This document shows positions 61,043 through 64,000 of a stretch of 64,000 nt of DNA, one piece after another. Every line of letters starts with the position of its first letter. Position 1 is the first letter of the stretch. The notes under the pieces are model-generated. The model was not told the DNA's origin. It worked only from the letters and a program-made list of their open reading frames with translations, and ran no database searches. Source of the stretch: Marinobacter sp. (GTDB lineage: Bacteria > Pseudomonadota > Gammaproteobacteria > Pseudomonadales > Oleiphilaceae); assembly GCA_022565395.1 (NCBI GenBank), contig JAIUMV010000003.1, positions 186,001 through 250,000 on the forward strand, in the 5' to 3' direction. A program made the translations under genes and the position numbers.

Positions 61043-61942
61043 ATGCCGCGTATTCGGGCCCTTGATGGCCGCTCTCTCCATGTTCGTGTTATCGGCCGTG
61101 GTCCGCAGATCGTATTGCTGCACGGTTTTGGCATGGAAAGCCGGCACTGGTTACCAGTGGTGTTACCGCTGGCCCACCGTTTCCAGTTTATCCTGCCGGA
61201 TTTCCGTGGCTTTGGCGGCTCCAGTCGCCATGCCTGTACGGAGGATTGCATCCTCACCAGCCACGCCCAGGATGTGCATGCCGTGCTTGAACAGCTCACG
61301 GGCAACCAGCCGGTGGGTTTGGGGGGTATCTCCCTGGGCGCCAGTACGGCGTTGCGATACATGGAGCTCTACGGTACGGCCCAGGTACGGCGCTATCTGC
61401 ATATCGATCAGTCACCCCGTATTGGCCATGACGACGGCTGGCCCTGGGGTATCTTCGGCGAGGAGGGGCCAGCGCAGCTTGAGCGCTGGCGTCCGTTCCT
61501 TGATCGCCTGGGGCGCTTCCCGGCGGAAACCCCGTTCGAGGCGTTGCCCGCGGATCTTCGTGAGCAGTTCTACGATGACCTGGGCTATTTCCTGGCCAAA
61601 GCCCTCAGCAAACCCTGGATGAAATGGGGCGCCCGGCGCGCTGCCAGCGTGCCATTGCTGGCCAATGAGCTGGTGCCGGTGGATAACTGGTACACCCTCT
61701 ACCAGCACATGCGGGCTTATGCTGAGCGTGACTATGACTTTCTGCCGTTGTTGCCGCAGCTGGAACTGCCGGTAAGGGTGATGGTAGGGCGGCATTCGGA
61801 AATGTACCCCTGGGCCGGGCAACTGCGTATGCTGGATCTACTGCCCAATGCGGAGCTGGTGGTGATGGAAAACAGCGGCCACGTACCGCTGCTGGATCAA
61901 CCCCTGCGCTTTATCAGAGAGCTGTCCGCCACCTTTGCCTAG
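61043..61942 (+). CDS. Alpha/beta hydrolase
   Basis: A 299-residue cytoplasmic alpha/beta-hydrolase fold protein. LLHGFGMESRHW carries the oxyanion-hole HGFG, the nucleophile elbow is GGISLGAS (Ser), and the catalytic His is in MENSGHVPLLDQP. The acidic member is not at the usual D in the VMVGRHSEMYP strand-7 loop, where Glu or an upstream Asp may serve. The wide active-site cap region (about 130-215) is typical of esterase or C-C hydrolases. The end overlaps the stop of the convergent GNAT-peptidase gene by 3 nt. Confidence 0.85.
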   Translation: MPRIRALDGRSLHVRVIGRGPQIVLLHGFGMESRHWLPVVLPLAHRFQFILPDFRGFGGSSRHACTEDCILTSHAQDVHAVLEQLTGNQPVGLGGISLGASTALRYMELYGTAQVRRYLHIDQSPRIGHDDGWPWGIFGEEGPAQLERWRPFLDRLGRFPAETPFEALPADLREQFYDDLGYFLAKALSKPWMKWGARRAASVPLLANELVPVDNWYTLYQHMRAYAERDYDFLPLLPQLELPVRVMVGRHSEMYPWAGQLRMLDLLPNAELVVMENSGHVPLLDQPLRFIRELSATFA

Positions 61943-63075
61943 TGGTCTGCGGCCGGTTGTGGCTGGCGCCGTGGCCCGATAATAATCGCCGCCTGCAGGG
62001 GCTGGTTGGCCCCGTAGCGGGCCATCTGCTCAAACACCCGGCGGTCAATGGGCAGGTACTGTTTGTCTGCAATGGTTTCGCCCTCTGCAACATCCACCTC
62101 CGGGTCATGCAGGTAGACGAACTGGTCATCCATGGCACACAGGGTTACCCAGTGGGGGACGCGGCTGTGATTCAGTTGCCAGGTGCTGATCAGCATCACC
62201 GGAATCCGCCCCTGTCTGAGGGCTGACTCCAGTACCTCAAGGGTCACCGGTTCGTGGTGCAGTTCGATGCCGGTAAGGGCGATATCGTACATAAAGCCCT
62301 CATGCACCAGTTCCAGCACCCGCTTCTTGTCCTCGTTGCGCACCGTATCCTTGAACAACGCCCCTTGCTGATTGATGTAGGCAGAGACCTCCACGCCTCG
62401 CTGCCAGGCCGCCAGAGCCAGGCCATGGGGACCGCAGCCGCCGTGGCCTGAAAGCATGAAAATGGTGGTGGCCTCGCGCCATACCCGCAGTTCCTCCAGC
62501 GTCGTCAGAGTCTGCTCATCATTGACCGCTGCCAACGCCATCATTAGGGCTGAGGGGCCGCAGGTAAATTCCGTACTCTGAGGGTAGTAGGGCACCTGCA
62601 CAAAGTCATCGGACGGCTCATAAAACAGGATACGCCGCTCGAAGCGCAGGGCATTGCCGTGATCTTCATAGTAATCCCGGTAGGTGCCGAACTTGCGATA
62701 GCCGAGACGCTCATAAAGGCCGATGGCCGGCGTGTTATCCTCCCGCACCTCCAGTCGCATCACGATACGACCGGCCTTGACGGCTTCCGCCTCTGCGGCA
62801 CGTACCAGTTTTTCCCCCAGCCCATGGCCGCGATAATCCGGTGACACGGCAATGGAGTAGATGCGCGCGAGACGCGTGGCCTTGTGCATCAGCACCAGGC
62901 AATAGCCCGCCAGGTTGCCCTCAGACTCAGCCACCACCACCCGGTCTCTGGGCATCTCGATAAAGCGACGGAAGCTGCGGCGGGAAATGCGGTCTTCACT
63001 GAAACACTGGTTTTCGAGCTTGACCAGCGCTTGCAGATCCTTGATATCCGCCTGTCTCAGGACAAAATCACTCAT
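61939..63075 (-). CDS. GNAT acetyltransferase fused to a papain-like (C39-type) peptidase
   Basis: A 378-residue cytoplasmic fusion. Residues 1-150 are a RimI-like GNAT domain with the acetyl-CoA loop RGHGLGEKL (82-90) and NTPAIGLYERLGYRKFG. Residues 155-370 are a C39-like peptidase with oxyanion Gln166, nucleophile Cys172 (PQSTEFTCGPSAL), His308 (RVPHWVTLCAMDD) and Asp324 (YLHDPE). There is no signal peptide and no ABC-transporter part. It is divergent from the ATP-grasp gene at 63283. Substrate unknown; a role in making, trimming or removing a peptide modification is inference. Confidence 0.85.
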   Translation of the reverse strand: MSDFVLRQADIKDLQALVKLENQCFSEDRISRRSFRRFIEMPRDRVVVAESEGNLAGYCLVLMHKATRLARIYSIAVSPDYRGHGLGEKLVRAAEAEAVKAGRIVMRLEVREDNTPAIGLYERLGYRKFGTYRDYYEDHGNALRFERRILFYEPSDDFVQVPYYPQSTEFTCGPSALMMALAAVNDEQTLTTLEELRVWREATTIFMLSGHGGCGPHGLALAAWQRGVEVSAYINQQGALFKDTVRNEDKKRVLELVHEGFMYDIALTGIELHHEPVTLEVLESALRQGRIPVMLISTWQLNHSRVPHWVTLCAMDDQFVYLHDPEVDVAEGETIADKQYLPIDRRVFEQMARYGANQPLQAAIIIGPRRQPQPAADH

Positions 63076-63282
63076 GGGTTGTGGCTACTCGCGGGCTGAT
63101 AAATCGTCAACCCAGTCGATCCGGCAAGCCGGAGGGTTTGAGCTATTATGTGGGTAATTGCCTAAAGGAGTGTAGCTCCATTCTGTGCGTAGAAGTGCGC
63201 ATGGGGCCGATGATTGGCAAGGTGCGGCTTTCCGCGTATCGTCAGCCCACAATAACCCGCCTTCCAAGGAGGAAGTGAACGC

Positions 63283-64000
63283 ATGTCCCGTCTGTTACTG
63301 GTGGTCGATAACGTTAAGGACTGGGCGCCTTATTACCCCAGCGATGATGTCCTCTCTTTTGACCAATATCTGCAACTGTCCAACGCTGCCAACAGTCGGG
63401 TGCGGGTTATCAACCTGTGCCAGAGCGCTCGCTACCTGAGCCGGGGGTACTATTGTTCATTGCTGGCGGAAGCCCGTGGCCATCATGTCGTCCCTTCGGT
63501 GATGACCCTCAATGATCTGAGCCGCAAGAGCCTGTTCTCCCTGGAGCTGGAAGAACTCGACAAAAGTGTGATCGAATGGCTCAACAAGGCCAAGGCGGAG
63601 TCCTGCGACAAGGATGGCGTCAAGCGTATCCGTATCCGCACCTTCTTCGGCCAGGCGGAACATCCGGAACTGAAGCCAGTGGCGCGGGCGTTGTTTGAGC
63701 GCTTCCCGTGTCCGATTCTGGAGGTGGTGTTCAGTTACCGCAAGGGCTGGAATATTGAAACCATGAAGCCTGCGGCCCCGCCAGACCTCAGCGAAGGCGA
63801 GCAGGATGTGTTTGCTGCGGCACTGGACCGTTTTAGCAGCATTATCTGGCGCAGACCTCGCTCCCGGCGCCGTTACCGGTATGACCTGGCCATGCTGGTC
63901 AACCCTGAGGAACAGTTGCCCCCCAGTGACAAAAAGGCCCTGGCCTTTTTTGAAAAAGCCGGTCGCAAACTGGGCATTAACGTGGAAACCATCACCCGCC
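63283..64000 (+). CDS. RimK-family ATP-grasp ligase, N-terminal part (cut by window edge)
   Basis: An open frame of 239 codons runs off the right end; it starts at ATG 63283 after AAGGAGG. MSRLLLVVDNVKDWAPYYPS and ARYLSRGYYCSLLAEARGH match the N-terminal RLAN domain of RimK-like proteins, which precedes a C-terminal ATP-grasp domain (outside the window). Family members ligate amino acids such as glutamate to peptides or small molecules. The 207-bp gap to the divergent GNAT-peptidase gene should hold both promoters; a 25-codon frame at 63205-63278 is present there but not convincing. Confidence 0.85.
   Translation, partial: MSRLLLVVDNVKDWAPYYPSDDVLSFDQYLQLSNAANSRVRVINLCQSARYLSRGYYCSLLAEARGHHVVPSVMTLNDLSRKSLFSLELEELDKSVIEWLNKAKAESCDKDGVKRIRIRTFFGQAEHPELKPVARALFERFPCPILEVVFSYRKGWNIETMKPAAPPDLSEGEQDVFAAALDRFSSIIWRRPRSRRRYRYDLAMLVNPEEQLPPSDKKALAFFEKAGRKLGINVETITR

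Follow-up and report, generated by a model that had tools for sequence, protein, structure and literature searches.

A co-inherited pair of an RLAN–ATP-grasp ligase and a GNAT–DUF3335 fusion protein, possibly a module modifying protein termini

The 64,000-nucleotide stretch of Marinobacter sp. DNA studied here (the window; positions 186,001 to 250,000 of contig JAIUMV010000003.1, assembly GCA_022565395.1) carries at its right end two genes, one encoding a GNAT acetyltransferase domain fused to a papain-like DUF3335 domain and the other a ligase with an RLAN domain followed by a RimK-type ATP-grasp domain. Our analysis showed that these two genes belong together and that their pairing is far from chance. 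We propose, with a probability of roughly 45%, that they encode a cytoplasmic module that modifies protein termini, with the ligase and an N-alpha-acetyltransferase as the usual core and the papain-like domain as an accessory. The genes are divergent and 207 bp apart, back to back as described in the original prediction made from the sequence.

The RLAN and DUF3335 families are each represented once in this genome. Among 81 sampled genomes of the family, both genes were present in the same 62, and the 19 genomes without a match were identical for the two; since many of the 62 positive genomes belong to one genus (g223), they are not independent. The joint presence and absence inside two other genera is more telling than this total: one of five genomes of g427 had both genes and four had neither, and one genome of g424 lacked both. 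The sample of 274 genomes of the class contained 43 with both genes, 20 with RLAN only, one with DUF3335 only and 210 with neither (Fisher test, p 1.6e-33). In other words, RLAN was found in 63 of the sampled genomes and in 43 of the 44 with a strong DUF3335 match. This count leaves aside weak DUF3335 matches in G016, G049, G116 and G004 (E 1.7e-5 to 1.9e-4), although those in G016 and G116 were rated over the cut-off. G154 (locus L064), alone in the class sample in having a strong DUF3335 fusion with no RLAN found, carries the gene on an 11 kb contig. Furthermore, distances between ligases and distances between fusions were correlated in 89 pairs with an r of 0.83, which includes shared species history (largest value in 500 shuffles: 0.09). 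These pairs were mostly divergent (55) or on the same strand with the fusion first (31); one had the ligase first and two were convergent. A lack of co-occurrence had been chosen beforehand as an observation that could refute the original prediction, and the pair did co-occur in both the family and the class samples.

The GNAT half of the fusion matched PF00583 in a profile search (E 2.8e-22). It scored above the cut-off of the RimI model TIGR01575 (91.8 vs 86.4 bits) and below that of a second RimI model, PRK09491 (41.5 vs 173). In the predicted structure of the fusion (mean predicted local distance difference test score, pLDDT, 92.7; predicted template modelling score, pTM, 0.85), this half superposed on Ard1 and RimI with Z 22.5–22.8 and a root-mean-square deviation of 1.4–2.9 over 145–153 residues in the seven best matches, and Glu109, Asn114 and Tyr136 were invariant in 38 fusions. 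The second half matched DUF3335 (PF11814) over profile positions 1–205 of 206 (E 1.3e-81, 273.5 bits; cut-off: 25). Its residues Gln166, Cys172, His308 and Asp324 were invariant in an alignment of 38 sequences; in a second alignment of 29 sequences, the first three were again invariant and Asp324 fell into the class conserved in 90% or more. In the model, Cys172 opens the helix 172–184, His308 lies in the strand 307–315 and Asp324 follows the strand 319–323, a predicted placement that by secondary structure is the papain order. The Cys-His-Asp triad and the glutamine that had been read from the sequence are thus conserved in the alignments and take the expected places in a confident model. A structure search with the whole fusion listed nearly exclusively GNAT proteins, and the DUF3335 profile had only weak matches among solved chains, the best being BtrH-type proteins (E 0.008, 44 residues).

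The ligase gene starts with ATG and leaves the window; on the contig, it encodes a full-length protein of 496 amino acids and ends at G000:C3:250773. The RLAN domain (PF14401) was matched with E 5.3e-49 (166.2 bits; cut-off: 25) and the RimK-type ATP-grasp domain (PF08443) with E 2.5e-10 at residues 289–466 (40.7 bits; cut-off: 21). As the latter lies beyond the window edge, the ligase half is represented in the window just by its beginning, next to RLAN; both parts of the predicted architecture were found, the ATP-grasp domain on the contig past the edge. The closest ligase relatives found were from Marinobacter species (80–82% identity in the best six), and a structure model was made on one of them, L065, which is 82% identical (mean pLDDT 86.6, pTM 0.67). 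Residues 204–495 of this model were closest to RimK, LysX and ArgX (Z 26.8–28.4 in the nine best matches), followed by D-Ala ligases (Z 24.0). RimK, LysX and ArgX act on a protein acceptor, and some of the titles of the matched entries in this group name RpsF or LysW.

In a profile alignment, Lys, Asp, Glu and Asn positions of the ligase coincide with those of RimK which we take to be the ATP and magnesium ligands. The Asn...Arg-Gly-Gly loop of RimK and LysX, which presumably binds the substrate, was not found in the ligase in profile alignments with 3vpd, 5zct, 4iwx, 1uc8 and 7qyr; HWQIYxHG...GG stands there instead. The addition of glutamate that had been suggested for the ligase therefore cannot be assumed. 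Moreover, the ligase stayed under the cut-off of the RimK family alpha-L-glutamate ligase model TIGR00768 (84.1 vs 143.4 bits), and a separate, ordinary RimK encoded elsewhere in the genome exceeded it (284.9 bits). A better-scoring RimI is also encoded elsewhere (119.8 bits). We therefore reject a simple replacement of RimK or RimI by the pair, and take the pair as an addition to the ordinary RimK.

We then compared the genes accompanying the ligase. From 141 loci, 137 were classified and four were dropped for lack of a near-full ligase; because 80 loci of one set were the best-scoring of at least 585, locus counts are not population frequencies. Beside the ligase we found a GNAT–DUF3335 fusion in 89 loci, a lone GNAT in 29, a form with a separate C39-like enzyme and GCS2 in 12, and no partner in seven, four of which (L028, L082, L084 and L127) end at a contig end. 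Hence the ligase is accompanied by a GNAT, a papain-like enzyme or both, as in the window fusion. Three loci (L071, L072 and L120) contain additional, shorter ATP-grasp genes nearby that matched the ligase profile. In the ligase tree, 23 lone-GNAT loci and one locus without a visible partner formed one clade, which includes entries named Dyella, Rhodanobacter, Frateuria, Dokdonella, Oleiagrimonas and Lysobacter, and the lone-GNAT state required at least four changes on well-supported branches. Glu109, Asn114 and Tyr136 were kept in all 31 aligned lone GNATs, one of them from a phage contig. The third form is a single clade (support 100) in which the ligase occurs with a separate C39-like enzyme, GCS2 (PF04107) and FGase (PF05013). 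All three adjoin the ligase in ten of its 12 loci, with the C39-like enzyme only in L013 and GCS2 only in L021. The separate enzyme is related to DUF3335 (hhalign probability 95, E 2.5e-8) and keeps the Gln-x5-Cys, His and Asp pattern in 11 sequences.

These forms bear on the original prediction that the pair adds and removes an amino-acid or peptide tag. According to this idea, a protein would receive an amino acid or peptide from the ligase and lose it again through the papain-like domain, as in RimK–RimB or the Rlo proteins. The tight co-occurrence and the intact papain-type residues stand in its favour, as do the separate C39-like enzyme with the same residue pattern beside the ligase in another clade and the ATP-grasp and protease systems of Pseudomonas described in PMC12239564. 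However, DUF3335 was not found in 21 of the 22 lone-GNAT genomes searched whole, whose completeness is not given; these represent 22 of the 25 lone-GNAT loci in that set, and three of three positive controls were found. The one lone-GNAT genome with DUF3335 was a Pontiellaceae metagenome-assembled genome, and DUF3335 was likewise not found in five lone-GNAT genomes of the class sample (G040, G171, G177, G260 and G272). A remover of another family could substitute. A further observation against this idea comes from a single-contig genome (G666, L193:2557-5467), where the ligase is split around a DDE transposase gene and the fusion gene is open throughout; judging by its sequence, this would be a natural ligase-broken strain. 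The papain-like part is shown to be the component most often missing, and the persistence of the ligase with a lone GNAT in several lineages does not support the peptidase as an obligate remover. An add-and-remove cycle is possible, if doubtful in our estimate; were DUF3335 the only admissible remover, such a cycle could not be the general principle.

The module that we favour would work as follows. The carboxylate activated by the RLAN ligase would most likely be that of a protein C terminus or an acidic side chain, as with RimK, LysX and ArgX, and the ligase would then join it in amide linkage to the amino group of an amino acid or peptide, as its fold and the kept ATP and magnesium residues suggest; RLAN may recognise the target. 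The GNAT domain, with its RimI/Ard1/NatA-type fold and kept Glu and Tyr, would acetylate the alpha-amino group of a protein or peptide. The papain-like domain, where present, may trim or release an end of the same target or remove the product. Co-inheritance, adjacency, the conserved catalytic residues, the protein-acceptor-like ligase fold and the Ard1/RimI-like GNAT all support such a module. Several points weigh against it. Co-inheritance by itself is no proof of a shared substrate. GNAT is not universal, since none adjoins the ligase in the 12-locus clade, and the weak match of DUF3335 to BtrH would fit a transacylase rather than a protease. RimK itself also produces free poly-glutamate, as stated in PMC12239564. 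Finally, the GCS2, FGase and DUF2817 neighbours are also compatible with small-molecule chemistry.

Because of these neighbours, small-molecule chemistry is a serious rival. The ligase and GCS2 could build, and the GNAT could cap, a small N-acylated peptide metabolite, such as an osmolyte, a redox or a storage compound, with FGase, DUF2817 and the C39-like enzymes degrading it. The joint occurrence of the separate C39-like enzyme, GCS2 and FGase in one clade agrees with such biosynthesis or turnover, and so does DUF2817, which weakly resembles the succinylglutamate desuccinylase/aspartoacylase domain (E 0.0066, under the cut-off) and lies beside 18 of the 137 ligases. Since the ligase fold is nearest to protein-acceptor ligases and the GNAT nearest to protein N-terminal acetyltransferases, we regard a metabolite as an unlikely product. 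DUF2817 is M14-like and mostly lies between fusion and ligase (L025, L030, L047, L060, L073, L075–L077, L079, L081, L084, L085 and others). In four loci (L027, L029, L037 and L044), an M14 zinc carboxypeptidase gene adjoins the fusion on the opposite strand.

The fusion of an N-alpha-acetyltransferase fold to a papain-like domain would also suit a maturation process in which an N-terminal residue, once acetylated by the GNAT, is cut off by the papain-like domain and the ligase acts elsewhere on the protein. A published classification describes DUF3335 as a close relative of the GUCD1 family PF09778, and its cluster I lists GUCD1 and C19orf54 (PMC10318531). The latter is ACTMAP, the actin processing protease, and in actin, NatB and then the actin maturation protease are thought to act before NAA80 (PMC11465159). 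The parallel with actin is an analogy, however, and GNATs without a protease domain exist, which makes acetylation followed by cleavage improbable.

ATP-grasp and C39-like enzymes both occur in clusters for ribosomally synthesised and post-translationally modified peptides (RiPPs), where a ligase could cyclise or extend a precursor and a C39-like domain could cut its leader. The window fusion protein had no match to PF03412, the C39 family of exporter leader peptidases, at E 0.001, in line with the earlier remark that it does not look like a RiPP exporter peptidase. To look for a precursor or substrate gene, we clustered the neighbours of the ligase in two ways. The first clustering used open reading frames of at least 80 amino acids in about 6.8 kb around the ligase; among its 40 commonest clusters, each present in at least seven loci, DUF2817, the separate C39-like enzyme, GCS2, FGase and DUF155 were common to distant lineages; the others, apart from one ABC-ATPase-like cluster, reflected local synteny or were antisense frames. 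The ABC-transporter-ATPase-like cluster occurred in 11 loci, seven of them Pseudomonas, up to about 6 kb away, and looks like local synteny. The second clustering used frames of 25–110 amino acids within 4.5 kb (7104 frames, 292 clusters). None of its 15 most widespread clusters was a short gene recurring across distant lineages; none was wider than Lysobacterales and kin, save low-complexity frames and a cold-shock-like gene. Neither clustering gave a recurrent RiPP or carrier precursor candidate across distant lineages. RiPP maturation is therefore highly improbable. Since distant lineages share no small neighbour of the pair in these clusterings, the gene for the target probably lies at another place in the genome.

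Another recurrent neighbour is DUF155, the family to which mitochondrial RMND1 belongs. It lies within 5 kb of the ligase in eight of the 137 loci; six of these have the fusion, and two are of the third form. In the class sample, RLAN was found in 20 of 36 DUF155 genomes vs 43 of 238 others (p 4.8e-6; one under-cut-off match, G052, left out). Eight of the 20 genomes with both genes, from six families (f8, f25, f97, f104, f131 and f170), have DUF155 within 8 kb. Outside the class, the fusion, ligase, DUF155 and DUF2817 were together in four of four stretches fetched from family f198, which were chosen since earlier loci showed one of DUF155 and DUF2817. DUF155 had no match in the window's own genome. 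The loci with DUF155 near an RLAN ligase are L189–L192, L194 (G022), L005, L023, L037, L047, L057, L060, L073 and L076.

Viral contigs also carry the ligase in an RLAN-less or RLAN-truncated form (L180:4977-5909, L182:4555-5864 and L184:4920-6077). In L182, the RLAN-less ligase has a GNAT gene next to it, and a baseplate gene and an integrase lie close by; this phage contig, with GNAT and ligase and without RLAN or DUF3335, fits a core of GNAT and ligase. The RLAN-less ligase of L180 lies between the terminase large subunit and portal genes with no GNAT match nearby, which weighs on the phage support for this core. RMND1 acts in mitochondrial translation and perhaps anchors the mitochondrial ribosome, according to PMC5264221, and the literature searched contained no mention of RMND1 together with RimK or ATP-grasp. 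One could speculate that the module together with DUF155 modifies a membrane-near or translation-linked protein, that RMND1 descends from a helper of a bacterial amidoligase–acetyltransferase system, and that phages took ligase and GNAT for their own or a host protein; we consider this combination quite unlikely. The link to DUF155, if true, would offer a biochemical starting point for work on a human mitochondrial disease protein.

The features of the window are listed in Table 1. The inverted-repeat-like element has the form ATGCGT-N6-ACGCAT, perfect in three of five aligned Marinobacter relatives and degenerate in the other two and in the window. The alignment-derived pattern with three mismatches had a single match in the window, and 77 of 100 shuffles also gave at least one match, so it is a weak operator candidate. 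The flanking genes are ordinary and encode an alpha/beta hydrolase, a CitMHS-type transporter, a cation efflux protein and a dihydroorotate dehydrogenase. Beyond the window, about 3 kb past the ligase, lies a ribosome modulation factor gene (PF04957, E 6.2e-19; L002:7565-7813, minus strand), which stays near the pair in Marinobacter loci.

Table 1 Features of the gene pair in the window
Feature	Position	Strand	Basis
GNAT–DUF3335 fusion gene, 378 amino acids	61939..63075	-	profile matches, alignments, predicted structure
DUF3335 papain-like (C39-like) domain, residues 161–366; Gln166, Cys172, His308, Asp324	61978..62595	-	
RimI-like N-alpha-acetyltransferase (GNAT) domain, about residues 1–150; conserved Glu109, Asn114, Tyr136	62626..63075	-	
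Intergenic region between the divergent genes	63076..63282	.	
Inverted-repeat-like element upstream of the ligase, possible operator (weak), 17 bases	63186..63202	+	alignment
RLAN–RimK-type ATP-grasp ligase gene, first 239 of 496 codons in the window	63283..64000	+	profile matches
RLAN domain (PF14401), residues 27–179 of the ligase	63361..63819	+	

No functional study of the RLAN–DUF3335 module was found in the literature; the broader searches were examined in part, with other hits judged by title. In the literature searched, DUF3335 appeared in a classification, RLAN with ATP-grasp occurs in an unrelated paper, and a pair of a RimK family protein and a peptidase C39 family protein is merely listed in a published fosmid table. 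The module is frequent and strongly co-inherited in bacteria. A further post-translational modification would become known once its target is found, and the lone-GNAT forms allow the division of labour to be tested directly.

To compare the pair with known systems, its ligase half is related to RimK and its GNAT half to RimI, the modifiers of the ribosomal proteins S6 and S18; the window genome has both of these separately, and the window ligase carries RLAN and a different substrate loop. With the amino-group carrier ligases LysX and ArgX, the ligase half shares the fold (Z 23.7–27.5) and, with LysX, a His-Trp pair in the loop in a profile alignment. Unlike them, the window ligase has RLAN, and no recurrent short carrier gene lies beside the pair. 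An amidoligase association of RLAN ligases with GNAT–papain proteins was reportedly predicted by Iyer et al. in 2009; it has the same domains, with the fusion beside the ligase, as the window pair, and nothing essential differs. The families are thus known (RLAN and DUF3335 in Pfam), and the window pair is a member of this reportedly predicted association. The present analysis adds counts of co-inheritance, the finding that the peptidase is replaceable, the link to DUF155 and the forms on phage contigs, with possible overlap with the 2009 prediction, which PMC10318531 cites for the DUF3335–GNAT fusion. RloABC of Pseudomonas likewise has an ATP-grasp protein in one process with a protease, but according to PMC12239564 its partners are a secreted retropepsin-like aspartic protease and an inactive-transglutaminase membrane protein, not GNAT and papain-like proteins.

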